Shown here in pieces: positions 1,435 through 32,596 of a DNA stretch of 33,614 bases. This stretch comes from a virus. The notes under the pieces are model-generated. The model was not told where the DNA came from. It worked only from the letters and a program-made list of their open reading frames with translations, and searched no databases. Made by a program: the position numbers and the translations under genes. The stretch is from the IMG/VR virus record IMGVR_UViG_3300033571_031326, positions 1 through 33,614 of that record; one strand, 5' to 3'. Each line of letters starts with the position of its first letter. Position 1 is the first letter of the stretch.

Positions 1435-1935
1435 ATGTACTTCAAATCATTTCCTGTAATACATTATAGTCTGGACGATGGAAAGACCAGTTTTCAGATT
1501 GCCGACATTTTTCGGCGTGTACGATCCTTTGACGCAAATCTGCAGACCAGTACCTTCTATGATGACTACGATGTTCTAGACGGCGAAACTCCGGAAATCG
1601 TGGCCGATAAATTCTACAATGAAAGTTACTATCATTGGGTTATTTTGCTGACCAACAACATACTGGATCCCAGATTTGATTGGCCATTGGGCAACAAAGA
1701 ACTGATTGCCTTTGTTAAACGCAAATACAGCATTGCAAACGTCGACGCTGTCAAACACTATATCAATTCCGATGGCGATGTAGTGCACAGCAGCTATGCT
1801 GGTTCTAAAACTCCGGTAAGTTATTTTCAGTACGAAGAGGCTATCAATGAAGCCAAGCGTCGCATCAGCGTAATTAAACCTGAATTTTTACCAGTCTTTA
1901 TTAATAATCTTACTGGATTACTAAATGGCAACTAG
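1435..1935 (+). CDS. gp53: Baseplate wedge protein gp53
   Basis: 166 residues, slightly shorter than T4 gp53 (about 196). The signature is at residues about 44-85: VLDGETPEIVADKFYNESYY, then HWVILLTNNILDP and DWPL. In T4, gp53 joins neighbouring wedges around the hub at the end of baseplate assembly, and its DGxxPxxxAxxxYxxxxxxW pattern is the conserved part. AAGGA at 1423-1427 lies 7 bases before the ATG. The gene ends 11 bases inside the next gene, so translation is probably coupled. The neighbours (tube cap, hub, spike) fit. Confidence 0.88.
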   Translation: MYFKSFPVIHYSLDDGKTSFQIADIFRRVRSFDANLQTSTFYDDYDVLDGETPEIVADKFYNESYYHWVILLTNNILDPRFDWPLGNKELIAFVKRKYSIANVDAVKHYINSDGDVVHSSYAGSKTPVSYFQYEEAINEAKRRISVIKPEFLPVFINNLTGLLNGN

Positions 1936-3286
1936 TGCAAATTCACCAGAAGGCATACAGACTGCTGGTGATGTCAATGTCGTTGAAGTTGTTATAATCA
2001 AAGAGAACAACGAAGAGCTCAGCGTCTTTCAGCTGGTGGGCGAGATCAACATCTTTGAAGACATGTTTAAAAACGGTCTATATGGCAACATTCTGCTGAT
2101 TGACGCTGGCAACTTTGTTGGCAAGTTCCCCATTGTAGGCAACGAGTACATTCGTCTGCAGATACGCACACCGCAGTTAAATCAGCGTATCTACAAGACC
2201 TTCAAAGTCTACAGCATCACCAATCGCATGATGATCAGGGACACCAACACACAGAGCTATATTCTGCACTTCTGCAGCACTGAGTTGTTCATTGACATGC
2301 TGGCACCAGTATATTCACATTTCCGTGGTCCAGTATCAGACATAGTAACACAGATCTACAAAGATCGTCTGGCCGTGCCCCGAAACTCGGGCAATGACGA
2401 AGATGTTACACCCTTGGTCATTGTTGGCGAAACCGACAACGAAATATCCTTTACCAGTCCAGGCTGGCACGCCACACACTGCATCAACTGGTTGGCGGCT
2501 CGTACTCTGCCACGCAACCTCAAGGCTCCGTCGTATTTGTTCTATGAAACTACTCAGGCCTTTTATTTTGCCAATGTCGAAGCCATCATTGATATAGCCG
2601 CACAGGACAAGTTAATCTATCGCGAATATAACTATGTTCCCGCCAACCTTACTGGTGATCAAAAACGCGAAGAATATCGCAAAGACGTTGAACGCGATTA
2701 TAGCAAGGTCGAAGAATTGGAAGTTGTAGAAACCTTCAATGCCTTTAAAAATACGCACAATGGATACTATGCCAATCGTCTGATTACTCTGGACATCTTG
2801 TCCAGAAAATATGAAGTCATTGACTATGATCATGTAGCCAGCTACAAAGAATACAAACATCTGGAAGACATCAACGGCGGTGGCCAGGCTCCGTTTTCCG
2901 ATGTTACTCTGCGCGGTCCCAGCAGTCTGACACAGTTCTATCCCAAGCACGAAAAACTGTTCAATGATCTGGAAACCAATGCCAACAACATTATTGACAA
3001 GACTCTGCCACGCCGAGTCAGTACTATCAATGAATTGGGCAATTTTAAAGTTGTCATAACCGTACCAGGTCGCACTGATGCCGAGGTAGGATCAGTGGTG
3101 TATCTACACTACCCTGATGCCAGCCCCAGAGATCAGAGCGACACCTCCAAGACCGGTGGCGATCCGTTGTTCAGTGGATTCTATCTGGTAACTGCCATAC
3201 GGCATAAAATAACCCTACAAAAACACATGATGATCATGGAACTGGTCAAAGACTCATATCGCAAGGAAAAGGTCAATGAACGATAA
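1925..3286 (+). CDS. gp27: Baseplate hub protein, gp27-like
   Basis: 453 residues. The N-terminal part reads as the jelly-barrel pattern of phage hub proteins: VSIYEDMF-like segments (INIFEDMFKNGLYGNILLID), then FPIVGNEYIRLQIRTP and YKTFKVYSITNRMMIRDTNT with YILHFCS. The C-terminal part ends with a strand pattern around VVITVPGRTDAEVGSVVYLH and GFYLVTAIRHKI, common in gp27/gp44/VgrG-type hubs. In T4, gp27 is a trimer that holds the gp5 spike; the spike gene overlaps this gene's end by 11 bases. It also overlaps gp53 by 11 bases. No strong ribosome site precedes the ATG at 1925, which suits coupled translation. The role is well supported by context; direct likeness to T4 gp27 is remote, so it could be annotated only as a tail protein. 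Confidence 0.72.
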   Translation: MATSANSPEGIQTAGDVNVVEVVIIKENNEELSVFQLVGEINIFEDMFKNGLYGNILLIDAGNFVGKFPIVGNEYIRLQIRTPQLNQRIYKTFKVYSITNRMMIRDTNTQSYILHFCSTELFIDMLAPVYSHFRGPVSDIVTQIYKDRLAVPRNSGNDEDVTPLVIVGETDNEISFTSPGWHATHCINWLAARTLPRNLKAPSYLFYETTQAFYFANVEAIIDIAAQDKLIYREYNYVPANLTGDQKREEYRKDVERDYSKVEELEVVETFNAFKNTHNGYYANRLITLDILSRKYEVIDYDHVASYKEYKHLEDINGGGQAPFSDVTLRGPSSLTQFYPKHEKLFNDLETNANNIIDKTLPRRVSTINELGNFKVVITVPGRTDAEVGSVVYLHYPDASPRDQSDTSKTGGDPLFSGFYLVTAIRHKITLQKHMMIMELVKDSYRKEKVNER

Positions 3287-6071
3287 TATTTTTGGACGTG
3301 ACGGATTTTATTGGTGGATCGGCGTCGTTGAAGATCGCGAAGATCCAGAAAAACTGGGACGTTGCCGTGTGCGCATTTTAGGCTATCACATCGACAACAA
3401 AGAAGTTCTGCCCACAGGCGATCTGCCCTGGGCCATACCCATGCAGAGCATCACCAGTGCAGGTGTCAGCGGCAAAGGATCCTCACCAGTTGGGCCCTTA
3501 GAAGGCAGCTGGGTAGTTGGATTCTTCCTGGATGGTCGTGACAAACAGCAGCCCATGATCATGGGCACCATGGGTGGATTACCCGACAAGACACGTGCCT
3601 GTGGTGCACAGGAAGCCAATCAGTCAAAAGGTGACAACAACGTGCTGCGTGATGGCAGCGGCAACGTGGTCAGCGATGGCAGCGGCAATCCGGTGCGAAC
3701 CGATCAGAACAATTCAGTTGTAGCCAAGCCTGCACCAACAAATCAAAAGATACAGGAAAATTTAGAAAAAATTGTGCTGGCCTGCAAGCGACAGGGTATA
3801 ACCAATCATTACTTTGTGGCAGCGGTCATTGGTAATGCTCTCAAAGAAGCCGGTGGAACCACCAAGGCAGAAATCAGTTATAGCGGTACAAAATTTCCTC
3901 GCATTCTCGAAGTATTTGGACAACGACGATGCGCAATACTTTCCCCAGAAGAATGGGAACGCGTAAGCCAAAATGACATACAATTTTTTGATTACATGTA
4001 TGGCGTGACCTGTGCAGACAGATCAAAGCCCGAAGGATTCAAGCACTTTCAGGTTGGCGATGGTTTTAAATATCGTGGACGTGGTTTCATACAATTCACA
4101 GGTAAAAGCCTGTACAGCAGACTCAGTAAACTGGCCTATGGTGATGAACGATTTGTCAGCAATCCTGACCTGTTGTTGGACCCAGACAATGCCGCACAAG
4201 CTACAGCGGCATTCATGAGACTGTCCATAGATTCTGGTACTGCTCAGAGGTTGACAGGTATAAATTACCCACCGACGAACCAGGCCGATGCCAATGTATT
4301 GGTTACCAGCATGGTGGGTGGTGGCGGTGATATTCGCAGATTTAGCTATGGCGTAAAAATTCTGGGCATAGTTAATAGTTTTACACCTCCTTATACTGTG
4401 GGTGCCAGCCCCAATGGTACCAGGGTTGCTGAACTTCTGGGTCAGCCTGCGTCACGTCCGCCAGATCAGGCCAAACCCAATACTGCGCAGCCCGATCCTC
4501 AGACAACACCGCCTACTGAGACTCTGAACGATCCCAAGCTGGGCAGTCCCGATGCCTTTAAAGATCCCAACAGTGTATATCCTACCTGTGATTATACTGA
4601 TCGTCCCGACACCAATAAATTGGCCACAGGCGATACCTCGGGCACCATTGTAGAGGCCAAGGAAAGAAATCGTGTTGTAAGTGTCGACACAGCCAATGGT
4701 GGTAGCTGGAGTGAACCCAAGCCAGCATTCTGCGGCAAGTATCCCTATAACCATGTCGTGGAAAGCGAAAGCGGTCATGTCATTGAAATGGATGACACAC
4801 CCGCACACCAGCGTCTGCACATGTATCACCGCACTGGTACCTTTGTGGAAATTGACGAAAACGGAACCTATCATCAGCACGTACAGGGCGACCACTACGG
4901 CATCTATGTCCGAAACAATCACGTCTACATCAAAGGCGGCTATGACATTACTGTAGAAAATGCTGCCAAGGTGTTCATACGCGACACACTGGATGTGGAA
5001 GTCTGGGGCAACACCACCATCAATGTAAAAAACGATGCAGTACTGAACGTGGCAGGCAATCTTAAGACTCAGGCCAAGAACATCTACATGGAAGCGCAAC
5101 AGGACTTTCATGTCAAGGCCGGCGGCAGCATGTTTCTGCAGGCCAGCAATAGCATGAACATCAAGTCCGGTGGAAGCATGGCACTGGATGGCAGCATCAT
5201 TGACTTTAACGATGGCAAATCTGCGTCGGCTGCCGACTCAGGTCTGGAAGTGCTGAGCACAGCCACACCCACGAACAACAAACCCGTAGATCTAGATCGT
5301 GTTGAATGTACTCAGGATACAGATGACCGTAGCTCTGGCGATGCCGGCGACGATCCACTAAAGCAGGAAAAAGACGTGGCTGCTGGTAAGAAGACTCAGG
5401 AAGAAGTAGACCGTGGTAAAGAGATTGCCCGTGCTGGTTGCAAACGATCTGACACCAAAATTGCCATCATTGTACCACCCACACCCTACAAGATCGGCGA
5501 GTTCAATAGCTATCGGGAGTTCCCACTGAGCATACAGCTCAGTGCCAATTATACTCTGGGCGATATTCTGCCATCGCATATTGCCACGGCGACCCAGGCG
5601 CGCGCTTTCTTCAAGAGCAGCATACCCACAGCCAATGGATTGACCAAGGCACAGATACTGGACAACCTGCGTGGACTATGTGTCAATGTGCTGGAACCCA
5701 TCAAGAAGCGTTTCCCACAGATGAGCCTGACCAGTGTGTTCCGCATAGGACCTGGCGAGGCACAGCATGGTGAGGGCCTGGCCGCCGACATGCAGTTTGG
5801 TGGCGGAAAAGCCGCACCAAATCTATATGATGCTGCCCTGTGGATTCGCGACAATGTAGCCTATGATCAGCTGCTGCTGGAATATGGAACATTCAGCGGA
5901 GTGTTCCAGGGCTGGGTGCATTGCAGTTTCAATCCCAATGGTAATCGTGCAGCATTGCCAGTAAATGGACCCAGAGGATATCCCAAGGTTGCTACCTTCA
6001 TGGATCATAAGATTGCAACCACGGGCGATGGACAGTTAAAACTCTACTTATGCGATCTGAGCCGACCATGA
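3276..6071 (+). CDS. gp5: gp5-like spike with GH19-type lysozyme and M15-type peptidase domains
   Basis: 931 residues (T4 gp5 is 575). Domains in order: an OB-fold at about 10-100 (FYWWIGVVEDREDPEKLGR, then PMIMGTMGG); a GH19-like muramidase at about 155-330, with candidate catalytic Glu191 in KEAGG, SYSGTKFPRILEVFG, and RGRGFIQFTG at 267-276; a Pro-rich linker at about 395-430; a gp5C/VgrG-like triple-stranded beta-helix at about 490-648 (repeating V-x-G-x-x strands such as VKAGGSMFLQASNSMNIKSG); a linker rich in Asp/Lys; and a C-terminal M15-like zinc peptidase at about 740-910, with His831 and Asp838 in QHGEGLAADM, Glu869, and His882 in WVHCSF. In T4 the spike pierces the outer membrane and digests peptidoglycan. 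Here the sugar chain and the peptide could both be cut. AAGGA at 3263-3267 precedes the ATG, which overlaps the hub gene. The PAAR tip gene lies just downstream. Confidence 0.88.
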   Translation: MNDNIFGRDGFYWWIGVVEDREDPEKLGRCRVRILGYHIDNKEVLPTGDLPWAIPMQSITSAGVSGKGSSPVGPLEGSWVVGFFLDGRDKQQPMIMGTMGGLPDKTRACGAQEANQSKGDNNVLRDGSGNVVSDGSGNPVRTDQNNSVVAKPAPTNQKIQENLEKIVLACKRQGITNHYFVAAVIGNALKEAGGTTKAEISYSGTKFPRILEVFGQRRCAILSPEEWERVSQNDIQFFDYMYGVTCADRSKPEGFKHFQVGDGFKYRGRGFIQFTGKSLYSRLSKLAYGDERFVSNPDLLLDPDNAAQATAAFMRLSIDSGTAQRLTGINYPPTNQADANVLVTSMVGGGGDIRRFSYGVKILGIVNSFTPPYTVGASPNGTRVAELLGQPASRPPDQAKPNTAQPDPQTTPPTETLNDPKLGSPDAFKDPNSVYPTCDYTDRPDTNKLATGDTSGTIVEAKERNRVVSVDTANGGSWSEPKPAFCGKYPYNHVVESESGHVIEMDDTPAHQRLHMYHRTGTFVEIDENGTYHQHVQGDHYGIYVRNNHVYIKGGYDITVENAAKVFIRDTLDVEVWGNTTINVKNDAVLNVAGNLKTQAKNIYMEAQQDFHVKAGGSMFLQASNSMNIKSGGSMALDGSIIDFNDGKSASAADSGLEVLSTATPTNNKPVDLDRVECTQDTDDRSSGDAGDDPLKQEKDVAAGKKTQEEVDRGKEIARAGCKRSDTKIAIIVPPTPYKIGEFNSYREFPLSIQLSANYTLGDILPSHIATATQARAFFKSSIPTANGLTKAQILDNLRGLCVNVLEPIKKRFPQMSLTSVFRIGPGEAQHGEGLAADMQFGGGKAAPNLYDAALWIRDNVAYDQLLLEYGTFSGVFQGWVHCSFNPNGNRAALPVNGPRGYPKVATFMDHKIATTGDGQLKLYLCDLSRP

Positions 6072-6280: not shown

Positions 6281-6571
6281 ATGCCTGCTGCAACCCGAGT
6301 TGGCGATGCCGACATTGCACATTGTTCGGGAATGACTAGAGCTCAGGGCTCGCCCAATGTGCGTGTCAATGGCAGACCCTGGAGTCGTCAGGGTGACAAC
6401 AATACAGCACATCTGTTGCCTGGGTCGCCCTGCCCTGGTCATGCTGCACCCATAACTGCAGGATCCAGTACTGTGCGGGTCAATGGCAAGGGCGCAGGTC
6501 GAGTAGGCGATGCCATAACAGCCTGCACTGCCGTGGCAGAAGGTTCAACCAATGTGTTCTGCGGAGGATAA
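6281..6571 (+). CDS. PAAR spike-tip protein (T4 gp5.4-like)
   Basis: 96 residues, the usual size of PAAR-repeat proteins. The start, MPAATRVGDADIAHC, resembles the PAAR motif. It is followed by two similar halves (GSPNVRVNGRPWSRQGD and GSSTVRVNGKGAGRVGD). His14, Cys15, His44, Cys51, His54 and Cys82 give several possible metal ligands, as in PAAR tips that bind a metal ion at the apex. In T4 and VgrG systems the PAAR cone sharpens the end of the beta-helix spike encoded upstream. AAGGAG lies 5 bases before the ATG. Confidence 0.93.
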   Translation: MPAATRVGDADIAHCSGMTRAQGSPNVRVNGRPWSRQGDNNTAHLLPGSPCPGHAAPITAGSSTVRVNGKGAGRVGDAITACTAVAEGSTNVFCGG

Positions 6572-6579
6572 ATAATAAA

Positions 6580-6969
6580 ATGGCCAGAAAATCCCGAAGC
6601 TATACCGACCTAGATGCAGCGTTTTCGCTGACTCCACGTACACGTGACGTCGCCACCAAGAGTGACGACAATGCCATACGCGGAGCCTTGCGCAATCTAA
6701 TACATACCCGACACTATGAGCGACCCTTTGCCCCAGAGTTAGGATGTCAGATTCACAATTTGTTGTTTGAGCCCAACGATGCGCTAAGTCTTACCATAGC
6801 TGAACGAGCTATACGCGATGCCATAACCAAATTTGAACCACGCGTGGAACTGACCTTTGTTCAAGTTACTGCCACCGATGCCAATGAAATGTTTGTGCAG
6901 ATAGAATATCGCATACGCAACACCAATGAGCCCGGTGTGTTTACAACCTCATTTACCAGAGTACGATAA
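6580..6969 (+). CDS. gp25: Baseplate wedge protein gp25 (lysozyme-like sheath initiator)
   Basis: 129 residues, near T4 gp25 (132). It has the GPW/gp25 family layout: DLDAAFSLTPRTRDVATKSD, then AIRGALRNLIHTRHYERPFAPELGC, then LLFEPND, and the conserved EPR triplet at residues 86-88 (FEPRVELTF). gp25 nucleates the tail sheath and sits in the wedge core with gp6 and gp53. GGAGG at 6563-6567 is 12 bases before the ATG. The sequence GATAAATA at 6567-6574 resembles a late promoter but would give almost no leader, so I do not call it a promoter. The gp6 gene overlaps the stop by one base. Confidence 0.95.
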   Translation: MARKSRSYTDLDAAFSLTPRTRDVATKSDDNAIRGALRNLIHTRHYERPFAPELGCQIHNLLFEPNDALSLTIAERAIRDAITKFEPRVELTFVQVTATDANEMFVQIEYRIRNTNEPGVFTTSFTRVR

Positions 6970-24730: not shown

Positions 24731-27700
24731 ATGGCAAAAATCAATCGGATAACACGCAGCGGTTCAAGTCTGGTCACTCTGGCCGAGCTTCAGAGTGGCT
24801 CACAACTATTCACCAAGACAGTCATCAACAAGACTCAGATAACACCTGAGCTACGTGACAACAACGTACTGGTAAAACGTGCCGAGCTGGTGCGTCGTGT
24901 CATTGATCGTATTGTCTATTCCGATACAGTCAGCGGTGTGCAGGTGTTTGCCGAATACCTGTTGCCAGTAGACAGTCCATTGCTGCTGTTTATTCGCGGC
25001 AGATTTTTTGATGATGCGGTATCGGTCACCGATGACGATGCCTTCCTGGTGCCTGGCAAGGGCTTCAATGAATTTGTGCAGGCCACCGACGATCGTCTGC
25101 GTCTACTGATCCGTGCCTTCCGAGTATTTGAAGACGCAGCACTGATGCAGAGTCGTACTGCGTTGCGACTAGACAAACCTCTGCCCACAGACCTGGTCAG
25201 TGCCCGAGATCTACCTAGCCTGGAACCAGGCCTCAATATATTTGATTCATTGCTGGCCACCGACGTGTCCAGAATTCTGGTGACATTTGGTCGTCTGTTC
25301 CAGCATGCAGTACAGATCACTGATCTGGAAAGTTTTGACATAGGCAAGGCACTGTTTGATGAGACTTCGGCACAAGAAGATCCTGTGTTTAGTCTGAGCA
25401 AGGTGCTGGCCGATGCCGTGGCAGAAATTGACAATGTTGCACTGCGCGCCGAGCTGTTAAAACAAGACAGCATTGCCTTTGCAGACCGCACCACATTAAG
25501 TAGCTTACTTGGTAAATTTGACGATGTTGTTACTCTGGATCAACTGTTCAAAGCAGTATCCATAACCAAGGCCGATGCCGTAATAATCCAGGATCAGACC
25601 AGCCGAATACCTGGCAAGGGGCTGGCTGATCAGACAGACTTTGCTGATCGTCTAATCCAAGACATTGTTAAGAATCTGGCGGACTTTGTTGTGCCTCAGG
25701 ATCTGGCCGGTGTATTTGACGGCATTACCTATAGCTATGGATTGTCACGTTCCTTTGAAGTTTTTGCCACAGATAATTTTAGATCGGCTACAAATTATTT
25801 CAGAACTCTGGATCCAGACTTTGTTAGTCTGCTGGACATTGCACGGCTAAGTTTGGGCTTCGGCTTACCAAACAACGTCGACGTTGTGATTGCGTCGGAT
25901 CAAAAACAACTATTCATTGGTCAGGGTATACGCGATGTACAGACATTGCAGGATGAACTGATTCGCACCACAGTAACTAGCCGTGTGTTCGAAGACGCCG
26001 AGCTGTCTGAAGATCGTACCGCATTGCGGTTGAATAAATTTGCTGCAGCGGATTCTGTGGAGTTCTTGGATGTAATATTGGCCGTGGTATTTAAACTGGT
26101 CAATCTGGCGGATGCACAGACTATTCAGGACGCAAGTCAGCTAGGCATTGGCCTGACAAAATTCGAAGACCAAATCACCGAGGATCAGACCAGCAAGTTA
26201 CTGAACAAGGTATTGTCCGATGCCAATGATCTGCAGGATTTCTCCAGACTAGCCGTTGTTAAAAATCTGGCCGACACTGCCATTACCGAAGATCTGGCCG
26301 GTGTGTTCGACGGCATTACCTATAACTATGGTTTGAACAAAACCGATGACACGCTGAGCACCGATGTATTTTCCAGACTATTCAATGCACAGCGCGTATT
26401 TGAAGACGATGAAATCATCGACGATGTTTTTTCCAAGATCTTTAATCGTTTCTTTTTAGTAGAAGATGCTCTGGATCAACCCGCAGATTTAATTTCTCTG
26501 CAACCTGGACTGAGTTTTGCTGATCGTGTTGGTTATGTCACAGTCTATATTGATAGTCCGCAGGATCTGCTCTACAACAGAGAGCTGGGAACAAACTTTG
26601 CCGGCTCCCAGTTGTTCTCGGCGACGTCGGTCACATCCAATGTTGCCGTGACCAGCAGTGGTACTGCGGCTAGTCAGTTCGATGGCTTCTATGCTCCTGC
26701 CATACCCAGCGATGGTCTGGGCACAGGCGAACCCGCAGGCGGCAATTATGTACTGTTTTCTGGTCTGGGTTCACGTTGGCTGGCCACTGTGCCGCTGGAT
26801 ACAACCACGGGCGACAACGTCATCTTTAGTTTCATAGCTGGCAATACTTCCAATGGTGGTGATCGACCCGAGGCTGGCGAAAATCTCATACTGGAATACA
26901 GTACTGATCTGGGCACCAGCTTCACCACCACAGCCACAATCTGGGCTGGTGCCACGCTCTGGCCCGACGGTGCCAACTGGCGTACCACCAGCATTACCAT
27001 GCCAGTGGCTTCCAAGACTTCGTCTACTATATGGCGCTGGCGTCAGACTGGCTCGCCCACCGAATTCGGTGACAACTATGCATTGTTTGAAATCTATGTT
27101 GGCAACAGAACTCCACTTACCATTGGTTTCATACCCGATGCCGAATTTTATAGCCTGACCAAAGTACTCCGTGAAACCGTAGAGCAGACCGACTCGGTAC
27201 GTCGAGCACACGCTGCCCGCCGCCGCGAAGCCGATCTCATTGATCTGCGTACTAACTTTGAACGGGTTTCAACGTCGGTAGCATCCAGTATTACTGCGCA
27301 AATAAGCGCCAGACTAAGTGCACCTACGCGCCCTACTATAGTATCTAACACCACGAACTGGTACGACCTGGCTGCACTGACCACCAGCGTGTTTGTTATA
27401 AGTCGAAGTGATAGCAGCTGGGGTGTGCGTTCTACCAACACGGGAACAACCTGGTCACCGATTAATTTTGGTAATAGCGTTTACAAATTTGCCAGCGACG
27501 GCCTGGTGGGCAATACCTCCATAGCTCTTATGAGCGCCACCGTAGGTCCATTTAAGAGTACAGATCAGGGTGCTAGCTGGGCCAGTGCTGCGGCCGCAAT
27601 AAACGTCAATGGTACACAATACTATTTACCTCACTGGGATAACAATCGTCGTATATTCATAGCATTTCATCGTCGAAGCATTCCGCCTTCAGGTAAAGGT

Positions 27701-30700
27701 TCCACACAATATAGCTGGCGCTATGATTACTCCAACAACCAGCTTACCACCTGGAATGCGGGTACTACTCACATTGGTCCCGGCGGTTTGGCGCTCACTG
27801 GCGATTATCCCGCAGGCGTAGCCAGCGGTGCCCTGCCAAGCGGCACAGGCTATACAGTACTGGTCAATCTTGACGGTCAAACCTGGTTTCTTAACAGCTC
27901 AGTGTCTATCGGCACATTTTTTACCAATGTGGGCAATGATTTCCCAGGCTGGCCCGGCGAAATTTCAAGTTCATACCTTGACAACAATTTCCTGACACAT
28001 GGTGCTGGTCAATTTGTTTTTGTCTATCCTGCCAGTGGAGGACCGGTCTGGAGAACAACGAGTCTGAATACCTGGTTTAGTTCTACTCTGACGGGATCGG
28101 CAGTTCCACAGGGTATATTCTGGGACACCAGTCTTTCCAGATTTGTTGTTATTGGTGAACTCAGCGCCGGTGTTCCCATAGTCTGGACCAGTACCGACGC
28201 TGATACCTGGAGTTCCAGCACTTCTACCACAGGCTCTGTGTTTGTTGACAATGCTGTACCCATACGGAGTGCTTTGGTGCCTGGTACTACTACTTCGGGC
28301 ACCAGTACGCTGGTGGGCATTGAATTAAACACTACTGTAAGCAGTGTATTACGCACTACCTTGTTTATAGCGGACACAAGTTTTACCAGCTTTACCACCA
28401 GTGTCAGCAATCGACCTACTCCGCGCGGTGCCGAGCTGCCCAGTGCCACGCGCTATGATGTGGTCAAATCTGCCCGAGCTGGACAGCAATACACCATCAA
28501 CTTCAAAGACACTGACGGCTCAACAGGCACCACGAGCCTGGTGTTTACAACCAGTGTTGCTACTACTTCAGGTCAGGTCACAACGTCAGACACCAACATT
28601 GCTACGCTGACCACCAGCGCCGGTGTATTCACCAACAGTAACATCTGGGCCTCGGGCATAGGTATACGCAACCGCGGGGCCGGCACGGGCTCGGGCGCTA
28701 CCGGTGGGTTTGCCACCTATGCACACTACTTCTTTGACACTGCTACTACACGTACTCTGACCACCAAGAGTTTCAGTACTGGGATTGCCAGTATAGCCTT
28801 CAGGCACATAGCTGGTAACGGCACCAACGGTGGCGAAACTCCTGATCTGAGTGGCGAACAACTGGTATTGCAGTATCTGTCATCGTCGACTGGCACCTGG
28901 GTTACGGCAACCACGGTTAATTTATTAACCACTGACAGCTGGACACTGACCAGCATAGCATTGTTGTTCAGCCCCACCAGAATACGTCTGGTGCAGTTTG
29001 CCTCCAGCGGCGGCACAACCGACAACTATGGTGTAGCCGAAGTTTCATTGTTGACTGTAACTTCAGTTGTTACTGTAACGTCGGTGACAACCAGCACAGT
29101 ATTTACAGGCACAGCCCATCCGCTGGACAGTTCCGTGGCGCTGACCTACACCAGTTCCGATACCGACCGAGTGGGTACTGTGGACACCTGGCGTCGTCTA
29201 ATTTCAGTGAATCGTGTATTTGAAGAGGCAGCACCGCCGTTGGATGCTGAACGGTTTACTCTGATCAAACCCATTAGTTCTGTGAACATTGTTGTAGGCT
29301 TTGGTGCCGACAACTTTGGGCAACGTGTCAGTGGCGACGATCTAGAACGTACTGCATTCAACATCAACAAGTCTGCACGACGCAGTGTGGCTGGAAGTCT
29401 GCTGGTCAAGACCATAGAATCTCTGGTTCCTTCGCAGTTCAGTACATCGGTGCAGACCATTGTAACACCATACTATGTCACTCTGCAGACCGATGGTTAC
29501 ATGAGTTCAGTTACCACGGGCAATAACTGGACTGGATCCACCTTGTTTTTGTCTACCAGTGATCGGTTTGGTACGGTTAGTACAGATGACTTTGGAAACT
29601 ATTTTACTTACCGTACGCCAGGCATCTTTCAGGGTGAATCACGCTACATTGACAGCAATTTACTGGATCTGCGCAATGCCACAGCCATTAGTTTTGATTG
29701 GCGAGTTTCAGGTCATGACGGCTCACCGTCATTTAGTGTTACAATAGGTGACACAACAACAACGATTTTTGATACCAGTAGTTCGCCATACAGTGGTACC
29801 AGTTATACAACCAAGACCATTGTTCTAACGCCGGCACAACGTCAGGCGAGTGTACTGGTTCGATTCCGTCAGAATGCCGATGATGAACTAGGGTCATCGC
29901 CCTTTGCTGCGTTTACCAATTTCCGTGTTCTAAACACTGAATATTCTACATCCTATGAAACCACGGTCACTGTCATAGGCTATACTGGTGTCAGAGATTC
30001 ATCGGTGCTGTTGTCACAGTCTGCACAGGATCGTGATGCTGTTGGTGTCATAGATCTCTGGACCAGCATCACTGACTACAAGCGTAATTTTGAACTGGAA
30101 ACACCGGCGCTGGACCGCATAGCCAAGCTGCTGATTCCTGCAACCTTGACTGATACTGTCAGTGTAGAAGATTCCTACAGTCTAGTCACAGACGGTCTGA
30201 CCTATGACGGCACCAAACTATTCCGAGAAATACAGCCTACTGCAGACTCACGTTTCTTCGATATTACCAAGAGTCTGACTGATCAGCCAATCATATTGGA
30301 TCGCACAGCTAAATTGGTTGGTCTGAATAAAACCGATGATGTCAAGGCTGGCATTGACATAGACCAGGCACGGGGCAATGAGCTGGAACGTCTGGCGTTC
30401 AGCATCACCATGCTGGCTCGTGCCGATGCAGGCAATCCTGCAACACATCCAGTTCAGATTGGCTTTGGTACTGCGGCGCCGGGCCTGCGTGTCAGTGGCG
30501 ACGATCTAGAACGCACCAGTTTTAACTTTACACTGCGTGCCAAGCAGGGCGCCAATGTCACGGTGAGTGGTGTTACCGTGGCGGCCAGCAGCACCAGTGA
30601 TACCCTACGCGTTGGTCAGCAGTTTGGCATCATTAGATTCAGCGGCGATGCCCAGGAGCGTATTAGCCTGAATGTCAACAAGGCCATCAGCAGCATCAAC

Positions 30701-32596
30701 ATCAGAGCAGGCAGCGGGGTAGACCAGGCACGTGGCAATGTGCTGGAACGTCTGGTGTTCAGCATCACCAAGCGCATCGGCGACAGCGTCATACCCGATG
30801 ACTTCCTGCAGACCTTCGACGGACTGACCTATCGCGCCACTCTGCTGGAGCGTGATAGTTTAACAGCAGGCATTGTACCCGCTCTGGGTATTCGTGTCAC
30901 GGGCTCGCCCCTGGAACGTACTGCCTTTGACTTTAGTCTGTTGGCCAAACAGGGCGCCAATGTCACTGTAAGCGGTGTGACCATTGCTGCTAGCAGCACC
31001 AGTGACAACGTACGAGTAGGACAACGATATGGTGTAATTCGTTTCAGTGGCGATGCTCAGGAACGCATCAGATTTGACATCAGCAAACCCATTAGCAGTA
31101 TTACACTACGAGCTGGCATTGACTACGATCAGCGCAGTGCCAACGAAGAGCGCAGCTTCTTTACTGTAGGAAAACGAATTTCTTCTGTGGCTGTGGTCAT
31201 AGGCTTTGGCGGTGGCACTTTTGGGGCTCGTGTTAGCGGCAATGATTTAGAAAGAACTAGCTTTGACTTCAGCCTGAGAGCCAAGCAAGGCGCCAATGTC
31301 ACTGTAAGCGGCGTAACCATAGCAGCCACCAGTACTACTGACATTGTACGCATAGGTCAGCGCTATGGCACAATCAGATTCAGCGGCGATGCTCAGGAAC
31401 GCATCAGTCTAGATTTTCTTAAAACGCCTTTGGTGGAAATTTCATATATTGCGGCAGGTGGCGCATCGGGTGCTGGTGGTGCACGCGGTACCTCATTGGC
31501 TTTACCAGATCCAGGTGCTGGTGGATCTAGTGGTGCCAATGGTACTACCAGCAGTGCTGGCGGTACCTACGGTGGCGGTGGCGGCGGTGCCGATGGCCTC
31601 GGCCGAGGCCTCGGCGATGCCGGTGTTGGTGTAGTACATCTGTATTGGAAAAATGCCAATGGTACAGACTCTTCTATAACATTTACCACATCGGCTGCGG
31701 CCACAACAAATTTTGTCACATCTTGGGTTTCCACTGTAAATGGCATAGTTGTAGCTATCTGTGTCGGTGGCGGTGGAGCGGGGCAGGACAATGGCGGCAG
31801 AGGTGGCGGTGGCGGAGGTTTAGGCTGGGCTGTTGTGCCTGTGGGGCTAGGCAACACCTACACAGTTCAGGTTGGTAGAGCTGGACTATTCTCAGTGCAA
31901 AATTCTGGAGGTGACAGTTATTTTAGCAGCATTACAACTGTAAAAGGCGGTGGTGGCGCCAACGGCATTGCAGGAGGAACTGGCGGCAATTACGTTGGTC
32001 AGGGCGGTGGCAATGGCGGCAACGGTGGTAATCGTACAGCTACCTATTCAGGCGGTGGCGGCGGTGGCGCTGGCGGTTATAGTGGCAACGGTGGTGCCGG
32101 TGGTAATGCAGATACTGGCAATACCGGTGTTCCTAACAATGACAGCACCGCCGGTTCTCCGGGTTCTGGGGGCGGTGCTGGCGGTGGTGGAGGCGGCGCC
32201 TATAGCGGTAGCTTGGGCCGAGGAGCTGGTGGCGGCGGAACAGGCATTGTTCCGCCCATTATAATACTGACCACTCAAAACATAGTAATTTCAGACGATC
32301 AGCGCAGATTCGCTAACTATAAACGTCCTGTTGAACTTAGTCTTTCCACAGAAAGTCGTTTTAACTATCTGCTGACCCAGCCCCGTCGTGAAGATCTGCT
32401 GGCCTCAGACGCTGTTACCATTAGCAACCTGCTGTTCCGAACTCTGGAAGACACACTGATCGACCCGCAGGGCGATCTTGACCCGTTCGGAAATATAAAT
32501 ACTATGGTCAGTAATGGATCTCTACGCATGACAGACTACGTTGACATAGAATATCTTGAGAACGACTATGTTGGCGCATCGCGATCATTTTCTTAA
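24731..32596 (+). CDS. Giant modular tail-fibre-like protein
   Basis: 2621 residues, no enzyme call possible. The N-terminus (LVTLAELQSGSQLFTKTVIN, then KTQITPELRDN) is probably the attachment end. Residues 92-600 hold about 26 copies of an 18-20 residue Asp-rich repeat (D-x-V-x-x-x-D ... GK-x-L). Then come a reelin/jelly-roll-like domain at about 637-795 (FIAGNTSNGGDRPEAGENLI); a beta-propeller-like stretch at about 870-1217 with Asp-boxes at 901-908 (STNTGTTW), 943-950 (STDQGASW) and 1154-1160 (STDADTW); a second jelly-roll at about 1283-1443; a third sandwich at about 1583-1738; three 61-residue repeats between 1920 and 2227; a polyglycine tip-like region at about 2241-2506; and a 115-residue tail with the Asp-repeat look. 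A late-promoter-like site lies in its last 110 bases. It probably binds host surface sugars; that is inference. Confidence 0.8.
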   Translation: MAKINRITRSGSSLVTLAELQSGSQLFTKTVINKTQITPELRDNNVLVKRAELVRRVIDRIVYSDTVSGVQVFAEYLLPVDSPLLLFIRGRFFDDAVSVTDDDAFLVPGKGFNEFVQATDDRLRLLIRAFRVFEDAALMQSRTALRLDKPLPTDLVSARDLPSLEPGLNIFDSLLATDVSRILVTFGRLFQHAVQITDLESFDIGKALFDETSAQEDPVFSLSKVLADAVAEIDNVALRAELLKQDSIAFADRTTLSSLLGKFDDVVTLDQLFKAVSITKADAVIIQDQTSRIPGKGLADQTDFADRLIQDIVKNLADFVVPQDLAGVFDGITYSYGLSRSFEVFATDNFRSATNYFRTLDPDFVSLLDIARLSLGFGLPNNVDVVIASDQKQLFIGQGIRDVQTLQDELIRTTVTSRVFEDAELSEDRTALRLNKFAAADSVEFLDVILAVVFKLVNLADAQTIQDASQLGIGLTKFEDQITEDQTSKLLNKVLSDANDLQDFSRLAVVKNLADTAITEDLAGVFDGITYNYGLNKTDDTLSTDVFSRLFNAQRVFEDDEIIDDVFSKIFNRFFLVEDALDQPADLISLQPGLSFADRVGYVTVYIDSPQDLLYNRELGTNFAGSQLFSATSVTSNVAVTSSGTAASQFDGFYAPAIPSDGLGTGEPAGGNYVLFSGLGSRWLATVPLDTTTGDNVIFSFIAGNTSNGGDRPEAGENLILEYSTDLGTSFTTTATIWAGATLWPDGANWRTTSITMPVASKTSSTIWRWRQTGSPTEFGDNYALFEIYVGNRTPLTIGFIPDAEFYSLTKVLRETVEQTDSVRRAHAARRREADLIDLRTNFERVSTSVASSITAQISARLSAPTRPTIVSNTTNWYDLAALTTSVFVISRSDSSWGVRSTNTGTTWSPINFGNSVYKFASDGLVGNTSIALMSATVGPFKSTDQGASWASAAAAINVNGTQYYLPHWDNNRRIFIAFHRRSIPPSGKGSTQYSWRYDYSNNQLTTWNAGTTHIGPGGLALTGDYPAGVASGALPSGTGYTVLVNLDGQTWFLNSSVSIGTFFTNVGNDFPGWPGEISSSYLDNNFLTHGAGQFVFVYPASGGPVWRTTSLNTWFSSTLTGSAVPQGIFWDTSLSRFVVIGELSAGVPIVWTSTDADTWSSSTSTTGSVFVDNAVPIRSALVPGTTTSGTSTLVGIELNTTVSSVLRTTLFIADTSFTSFTTSVSNRPTPRGAELPSATRYDVVKSARAGQQYTINFKDTDGSTGTTSLVFTTSVATTSGQVTTSDTNIATLTTSAGVFTNSNIWASGIGIRNRGAGTGSGATGGFATYAHYFFDTATTRTLTTKSFSTGIASIAFRHIAGNGTNGGETPDLSGEQLVLQYLSSSTGTWVTATTVNLLTTDSWTLTSIALLFSPTRIRLVQFASSGGTTDNYGVAEVSLLTVTSVVTVTSVTTSTVFTGTAHPLDSSVALTYTSSDTDRVGTVDTWRRLISVNRVFEEAAPPLDAERFTLIKPISSVNIVVGFGADNFGQRVSGDDLERTAFNINKSARRSVAGSLLVKTIESLVPSQFSTSVQTIVTPYYVTLQTDGYMSSVTTGNNWTGSTLFLSTSDRFGTVSTDDFGNYFTYRTPGIFQGESRYIDSNLLDLRNATAISFDWRVSGHDGSPSFSVTIGDTTTTIFDTSSSPYSGTSYTTKTIVLTPAQRQASVLVRFRQNADDELGSSPFAAFTNFRVLNTEYSTSYETTVTVIGYTGVRDSSVLLSQSAQDRDAVGVIDLWTSITDYKRNFELETPALDRIAKLLIPATLTDTVSVEDSYSLVTDGLTYDGTKLFREIQPTADSRFFDITKSLTDQPIILDRTAKLVGLNKTDDVKAGIDIDQARGNELERLAFSITMLARADAGNPATHPVQIGFGTAAPGLRVSGDDLERTSFNFTLRAKQGANVTVSGVTVAASSTSDTLRVGQQFGIIRFSGDAQERISLNVNKAISSINIRAGSGVDQARGNVLERLVFSITKRIGDSVIPDDFLQTFDGLTYRATLLERDSLTAGIVPALGIRVTGSPLERTAFDFSLLAKQGANVTVSGVTIAASSTSDNVRVGQRYGVIRFSGDAQERIRFDISKPISSITLRAGIDYDQRSANEERSFFTVGKRISSVAVVIGFGGGTFGARVSGNDLERTSFDFSLRAKQGANVTVSGVTIAATSTTDIVRIGQRYGTIRFSGDAQERISLDFLKTPLVEISYIAAGGASGAGGARGTSLALPDPGAGGSSGANGTTSSAGGTYGGGGGGADGLGRGLGDAGVGVVHLYWKNANGTDSSITFTTSAAATTNFVTSWVSTVNGIVVAICVGGGGAGQDNGGRGGGGGGLGWAVVPVGLGNTYTVQVGRAGLFSVQNSGGDSYFSSITTVKGGGGANGIAGGTGGNYVGQGGGNGGNGGNRTATYSGGGGGGAGGYSGNGGAGGNADTGNTGVPNNDSTAGSPGSGGGAGGGGGGAYSGSLGRGAGGGGTGIVPPIIILTTQNIVISDDQRRFANYKRPVELSLSTESRFNYLLTQPRREDLLASDAVTISNLLFRTLEDTLIDPQGDLDPFGNINTMVSNGSLRMTDYVDIEYLENDYVGASRSFS
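25004..26537 (+). repeat. About 26 Asp-rich 18-20 residue repeats (protein level)
   Basis: Within the giant fibre protein, residues 92 to about 600 can be laid out as consecutive units such as FDDVVTLDQLFKAVSITK, ADAVIIQDQTSRIPGKGL, ADQTDFADRLIQDIVKNL, FEDQITEDQTSKLLNKVL and SDANDLQDFSRLAVVKNL. Conserved features are an aromatic or Ala plus Asp at the start, a second Asp six residues on, and Lys-x-Leu near the end. Two units share DLAGVFDGITY. DNA identity between units is mostly low, so the array is old. Confidence 0.75.
30488..30670 (+). repeat. 61-residue repeat, copy 1
   Basis: Residues 1920-1980 of the giant fibre protein, from RVSGDDLERT to DAQERISL. By my count 46 of 61 residues match copy 2 and 49 of 61 match copy 3. 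The first 26 bases (30488-30513) are repeated exactly at 29324-29349, where only the start of the unit (RVSGDDLERTAFN) is present. Confidence 0.9.
30893..31075 (+). repeat. 61-residue repeat, copy 2
   Basis: Residues 2055-2115 of the giant fibre protein. The core AKQGANVTVSGVT is identical in all three copies, and so is IRFSGDAQERI near the end. By count, 49 of 61 residues match copy 3. Confidence 0.9.
31229..31411 (+). repeat. 61-residue repeat, copy 3
   Basis: Residues 2167-2227 of the giant fibre protein, from RVSGNDLERT to DAQERISL. It is followed after about 13 residues by the polyglycine region. Confidence 0.9.
31451..32249 (+). repeat. Polyglycine-rich tip-like region (protein level)
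   Basis: Residues about 2241-2506 of the giant fibre protein alternate Gly-rich runs (GGGGGGADGLGRGLG, GGRGGGGGGLGW, GGGNGGNGGN, GSGGGAGGGGGGAYSG) with short beta segments (IVVAICVGGGG; NTYTVQVG; GGDSYFSSI). This V-x-V-G-x-x-G plus polyglycine pattern is that of receptor-binding tips such as gp38-type adhesins of T-even relatives, where glycine runs form a packed polyglycine II layer. Confidence 0.75.
32494..32505 (+). promoter_or_regulatory. T4-type late promoter, exact TATAAATACTAT
   Basis: These 12 bases match the T4 late promoter TATAAATA at every position and also the extended form TATAAATACTAT as I know it. The site lies in the last 110 bases of the giant fibre gene and faces the gene at 32611, giving an expected leader of about 100 bases. 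It is the only exact rightward match I found in the window. Confidence 0.6.

Follow-up and report, generated by a model that had tools for sequence, protein, structure and literature searches.

How can the spike of a phage tail bear an enzyme beyond the end of its needle, where the PAAR tip protein should dock? The question is raised by an open reading frame of 931 codons at 3276-6071, plus strand, of IMG/VR virus record IMGVR_UViG_3300033571_031326, within a stretch of 33,614 nucleotides (positions 1 to 33,614 of that record, hereafter the window). This reading frame, whose boundaries are exact, encodes a central spike protein of the T4 gp5 type, in which a GH19-like domain precedes the triple-stranded beta-helix of the needle and an M15-like domain follows it. 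Our answer, to which we give a probability of about three in four, is that the trimeric T4-like spike would carry a GH19-like glycosidase at its base and an M15-like zinc peptidase tethered at its tip, the latter entering together with the cap.

A gp5-type spike with two added domains

Identity of the spike protein is strong. Pfam Gp5_OB matches it with E=2e-19 and 70.6 bits (cut-off 25), PHROG 430, 'baseplate hub subunit and tail lysozyme', matches it with E=3e-80, and a PDB search leads to T4 gp5 with E=1e-34, the OB fold and the beta-helix both being aligned. The gene also lies where a gp5-type gene is expected: Pfam and PHROG name its neighbours as a tail-tube cap, gp53, a tail protein in hub position, PAAR, gp25 and gp6. 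The order of domains is OB fold, GH19-like domain, linker, triple beta-helix, linker and M15-like domain, with the following coordinates in the window.

3276..6071, plus strand: gp5-type central spike, 931 amino acids (Pfam, PHROG and PDB matches)
3276..3590, plus strand: N-terminal OB fold, residues 1-105 (Pfam Gp5_OB; T4 gp5 alignment)
3723..4445, plus strand: GH19-like glycosidase domain, residues ~150-390, at the position of the T4 gp5 lysozyme (profiles, model)
3846..3848, plus strand: codon of E191 in KEAGG, predicted catalytic acid (invariant in 42 sequences)
3870..3872, plus strand: codon of E199, the other predicted catalytic acid (kept in almost all of 42 sequences; column E50 of the first of them)
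4446..4706, plus strand: linker, residues 391-477, holding the match to the T4 maturation cleavage region, S351/A352 (alignment)
4707..5219, plus strand: triple-stranded beta-helix, residues 478-648, ending in LDGSIIDFN (T4 gp5 match)
5220..5519, plus strand: post-helix linker, residues 649-748, 80% disorder-promoting letters (composition)
5520..6068, plus strand: M15-like zinc peptidase domain, residues 749-931 (alignment, model, family profiles)
5766..5768, plus strand: codon of H831, predicted zinc ligand (invariant)
5787..5789, plus strand: codon of D838, predicted zinc ligand (invariant)
5880..5882, plus strand: codon of E869, predicted catalytic or supporting glutamate (invariant; weakly aligned with the zinc-site glutamate of hedgehog proteins)
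5919..5921, plus strand: codon of H882, predicted zinc ligand (invariant)

The predicted glycosidase at the base of the needle

A preliminary description of this DNA, made from the letters alone, had noticed GH19-like motifs before the helix, KEAGG with E191 and RGRGFIQFTG at residues 267-276. Both are present as quoted, and a GH19 profile and the predicted fold agree with them; a second acidic residue, E199, had been missed. When residues 150-390 are combined with close relatives into a profile, it reaches GH19 endolysins of solved structure (8p8e, E=2e-18; 4ok7, the SPN1S endolysin, E=4e-12). Inspection of the predicted folds of both enzyme regions had been proposed, and for this one the outcome is clear: the AlphaFold2 model (predicted local distance difference test score, pLDDT, 93) is matched by Foldseek to GH19 endolysins and to the GH19 domain of TseP (PDB 8xcl) with probability 1.00. 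TseP, the top fold match, is a dual-function effector of the type VI secretion system (T6SS), thus a secreted protein and not a phage spike. The window domain alone stays below the cut-off of Pfam GH19, which 36 of 42 relatives match at E<=0.01. In the 42-sequence alignment E191 is found in all and E199 in at least 90%, which agrees with the two catalytic acids expected of a GH19 enzyme. Assignment of residues ~150-390 to GH19 is thus supported by sequence profile and fold search.

Could this domain be the lysis endolysin of the virus? The idea was dropped, since a separate gene for a protein of 309 amino acids with GH19 and PG_binding_1 domains exists in the same virus (138290-138820 of the L010 contig described below; L189:1225-2154, minus strand). 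This separate protein is likely the lysis endolysin, and the GH19 domain of the spike would then be a second, virion-type copy that is not needed for lysis. The nearest GH19 relatives outside spikes (L104-L125, L135) lie in proteins mostly of ~950-1500 amino acids, to which no role is assigned.

The predicted peptidase beyond the helix

The domain after the helix was aligned with 39 other sequences, most of which are less than 50% identical to that of the window. H831, D838, E869 and H882, the residues by which the preliminary description had recognized a peptidase, are invariant in all 40, and H831, D838 and H882 make up the His-Asp-His set of zinc ligands in HxxGxAxD and WxH motifs. Pfam Peptidase_M15_3 matches 31 of the 40 at E<=0.05 (best 6.8e-6). 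The predicted model of the domain has a pLDDT of 88 and a predicted template modelling score of 0.86, and viral structure models named Peptidase M15A, some of which are gp5 proteins, match it down to E=1.6e-14.

Some results weigh against a peptidase of this kind. Pfam assigns the window's own M15 part to no family. The only notable fold match in the PDB is the zinc DD-peptidase 1lbu, and it is weak (E=0.02, probability 0.95, template modelling score 0.36); the proposed fold check therefore holds here for viral models and only faintly for solved structures. A sequence search of the PDB with a first, small M15 alignment gave nothing real. In classical M15 enzymes an acidic residue stands three positions before the last His, and here that place is taken by G879. 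Because this acid is absent, the domain is called M15-like; the invariant E869, 13 residues before the last His, is likely the catalytic residue in its place. Family profiles and viral structure models speak for the M15 assignment, and solved structures do so weakly. As for the earlier suggestion that one spike might cut both glycan and peptide bonds, comparative evidence favours both enzyme assignments, and the two activities are to be read as predicted. As a side observation, one protein from a bacterial bin has two M15-like domains in tandem (L198:4956-5897).

The tip of the needle

Does an enzyme at this end disturb docking of the cap? The preliminary description had regarded its position as geometrically odd. 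It had also stated that T4 gp5 has its lysozyme domain before the helix and ends in the needle, which is correct: the last residues of T4 gp5, IDGSRIDIG, are its helix end, and LDGSIIDFN of the window aligns with them. The helix itself is recognized by its sequence match to that of T4 gp5 together with this common end motif. In T4, the last strand of gp5 binds the PAAR protein gp5.4 (PMC4576200). Beyond the motif of the window spike come ~100 residues rich in disorder-promoting letters and only then the peptidase. Since a T4-like helix end and a linker of this length are compatible with both PAAR docking and a C-terminal extension, the position is not as odd as it looked; evolved VgrG proteins of the T6SS carry enzymes in a comparable manner (PMC6899460). 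As judged from sequence, the docking place of the cap is preserved, with the peptidase added past it.

Among M15-bearing spikes in which the motif was found, mostly 83-188 residues separate it from the M15 domain; in more than half of all M15-bearing spikes the search fails, owing to a different helix end or to too narrow a pattern, and a few values (e.g., 222 residues in L093 and 32 in L075) come from places other than the helix end that the pattern matched by chance, which limits these linker statistics. In the gp5 proteins of L052, L057 and L070-L074 (~residues 270-795), ~520 residues lie between the helix start and the M15-like domain, and this region has a coiled-coil-like stretch and no known domain.

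One peptidase family on either partner

Another observation bears on the tip: phages Milchi, Vibrio 1.244.A, Aura and PA5oct, and further contigs, have the same M15-like family fused to the C-terminus of PAAR. Thus, these PAAR proteins share with the window spike both the peptidase family and the end of the needle, although it is the cap and not the spike that bears the enzyme. Where the spike gene of such phages is in view, the spike has neither an M15 domain nor a base enzyme, and most of these spikes stop at the helix-end motif; seven whose peptidase is on PAAR end exactly there, with 0 residues after it. Counted over loci with a complete spike gene, which were partly chosen by M15 searches and are neither independent nor de-duplicated, the M15 domain is on gp5 in 65, on PAAR in 9 and on both in 0. 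A separate PAAR gene is also seen in 40 of the 65 loci with M15 on gp5. In a tree of 80 de-duplicated M15 domains, one group (support 100/99) unites the 51 that come from spikes, PAAR proteins and similar proteins of phages and stands apart from stand-alone relatives in bacterial genomes; within it the PAAR-fused domains are nested among the gp5-fused ones.

Other fusions were met on the way. Proteins of L029, L030, L086, L089 and L092 join an M15-like domain to a short N-terminal part with PAAR-like repeats, which fall below the cut-off of every PAAR model. In L063 (1470-2450) and L077 the domain follows a third, unrelated N-terminal part of ~180 amino acids, and next to these fusions there are a spike that lacks M15 and a PAAR gene of its own.

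How would the two enzymes work?

The M15-like peptidase would hang from the needle tip by its flexible linker of ~100 residues, beside the PAAR cap. On contraction, cap and needle would pierce the outer membrane and bring three copies of the peptidase into the periplasm with the tip, where they may cut the peptide bonds of the wall. The GH19 copies, coming with the base of the needle, would probably follow and cut the glycan strands, letting the tube pass. The preliminary description had offered three ways out for the peptidase: to fold back, to be cleaved off or to be delivered first. Tethering at the tip and entry with it are favoured, because elsewhere the same family is fused to the PAAR cap; the two other ways appear less likely.

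If the peptidase folded back along the needle, it would act beside the glycosidase and not ahead of it. The needle of T4 is 100 A long (PMC4576200), and a linker of ~100 residues could perhaps reach back along a helix of about that length. Folding back is nevertheless unlikely. Some other phages have this domain on the PAAR cap, a position that serves delivery at the tip, and linker lengths vary too widely to suggest one docking site on the shaft.

Slightly less probable still is that the M15-like domain is a zinc-site scaffold that binds the wall and has no peptidase activity. The comparison is with hedgehog proteins, which keep fold and zinc and are not known to be proteolytic. In a PDB profile search with the larger M15 alignment, hedgehog proteins were the only solved sequences reached, weakly (E=0.08), with H831, D838, E869 and H882 aligned to their zinc site; the missing acid before the last His points the same way. 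Yet E869 is invariant together with the zinc ligands, relatives match Peptidase_M15_3, and those that stand alone carry annotations as phage endolysins or peptidases, which argues for an enzyme. It is very improbable that the domain merely helps assembly and is removed by cleavage, either ahead of maturation or in its course: cleaved C-terminal chaperone domains are known for fibrous proteins (PMC4576200), and processing also occurs in T4 gp5, where the cut between S351 and A352 precedes the helix (PMC7650644), but the zinc-site residues are invariant in 40 diverse sequences, other phages have the domain on PAAR instead, spikes without it end at the helix tip, and the database record of the PA5oct PAAR-M15 protein bears an ESI-MS/MS (electrospray ionization tandem mass spectrometry) note.

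Exchange at the base

Domain matches among relatives indicate that the base slot of the needle, between OB fold and helix, is exchangeable as well. It is occupied by GH19 in the group of the window, in BUCT-ZZ01 and in others, by Phage_lysozyme2 in Cr30, by an SLT-like domain with ESS...GKYQFG, named from the motif alone, in some relatives, and by a VanY-like M15 domain in Melnitz and related contigs; in some spikes the slot holds no domain. On the M15 tree the GH19-bearing spikes require five label changes, of which well-supported branches force no more than one; from these changes, GH19 was probably gained or lost repeatedly. In Melnitz and its related contigs the spike is split into two genes, and the split falls in the same inter-domain region as the maturation cut of T4 gp5. 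Split spikes of L002 (4001-7044) and 16 similar loci consist of an OB fold with a VanY-like peptidase and, separately, a helix with an M15-like peptidase, and thus have two different M15-type domains, one on each side of the needle.

Might this hold for T4-like phages in general? A tentative extension, which we consider somewhat less probable than its opposite, is that they have an exchangeable tip slot, filled by one M15-like family through gp5 or PAAR and never both, and an exchangeable base slot, and that the wall would be breached peptide first and glycan second.

Comparison with known systems

T4 gp5 with gp5.4 has the same plan as far as it goes: an OB fold is followed by a wall enzyme and then by a triple beta-helix that shares the end motif, and PAAR is encoded by its own gene downstream. 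The differences are that T4 has its own type of lysozyme where GH19 stands here, and that it stops at the helix end while the window spike goes on with linker and M15-like domain. The gp5 proteins of pf16, Cr30, BUCT-ZZ01 and Melnitz share OB fold, helix and a C-terminal domain of the same M15-like family. Homologues with both enzymes, which the preliminary description had wished to see, do exist: BUCT-ZZ01 gp5 has the full order OB-GH19-helix-M15. Unlike it, no base enzyme was found in pf16, and Cr30 and Melnitz differ from the window in the base domains given above. Two papers searched for these gp5 phages, PMC5587285 and PMC9004378, do not mention the C-terminal peptidase.

Evolved VgrG and PAAR proteins of the T6SS (e.g., VgrG3 of Vibrio cholerae and VgrG2b of Pseudomonas aeruginosa) similarly have an effector enzyme, placed either behind the needle or on PAAR, and a single metallopeptidase family of the T6SS is attached to VgrG or to PAAR depending on the species (PMC6899460). 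The phage proteins, in which an enzyme is covalently added at the same places, seem to work alike without being members of the T6SS. The enzyme of VgrG2b differs in being a HEXXH peptidase of the thermolysin type that lacks wall hydrolase activity, whereas the domain here is M15-like and in a phage; in addition, the window spike has a second enzyme at its base, unlike the evolved proteins. Combination of two cutting activities in one baseplate protein is known from hub gp15 of the Anabaena myophage A-1(L), for which hydrolysis of both glycan and peptide was demonstrated experimentally (PMC10966104); its enzymes are in the hub and not in the spike, and none comes after a needle.

Neighbouring genes and the longer contig

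Over its first 11 kb, the window has only 4 base differences from the 166.9-kb IMG/VR contig IMGVR_UViG_3300032295_003840 (L010), in which the spike is 100% identical; relatives in other contigs are 69-78% identical. Near the spike gene the window has the following genes.

1925..3286, plus strand: tail protein directly upstream of gp5, probable hub partner (PHROG 350)
6281..6571, plus strand: PAAR tip protein, 96 amino acids, separate gene, counterpart of T4 gp5.4 (Pfam PAAR_motif, E=1e-11; PHROG 281)
6580..6969, plus strand: gp25-like baseplate wedge protein (Pfam)

Is the virus a cyanophage? A test for psbA gave a match below threshold only. A search for the family DUF882 in the 166.9-kb contig was empty. 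At 24731-32596 the window encodes a protein of 2621 amino acids with internal repeats (e.g., units of 182 nucleotides at 30488, 30893 and 31229), a glycine-rich part near its end and almost no family match, which is probably a fibre or baseplate structural protein.

What would a two-enzyme spike mean?

Each component has been described before: GH19 domains and M15-like ones, spikes of the gp5 type, PAAR caps, evolved VgrGs and dual-activity hubs. Among open-licence papers, we found none that discusses enzymes on both sides of the needle in one gp5 spike, or an M15-like peptidase alternating between gp5 and PAAR; since only papers under such licences were covered, this absence tells little. If the present reading is right, one peptidase family that is found on either partner would be the phage counterpart of evolved VgrG and evolved PAAR in the T6SS, and cultured phages, pf16 and Cr30 among them, would allow delivery of wall enzymes at the tip to be tested. 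In many aquatic T4-like phages the spike may then be a carrier with two slots for enzymes, not a needle with a single lysozyme.

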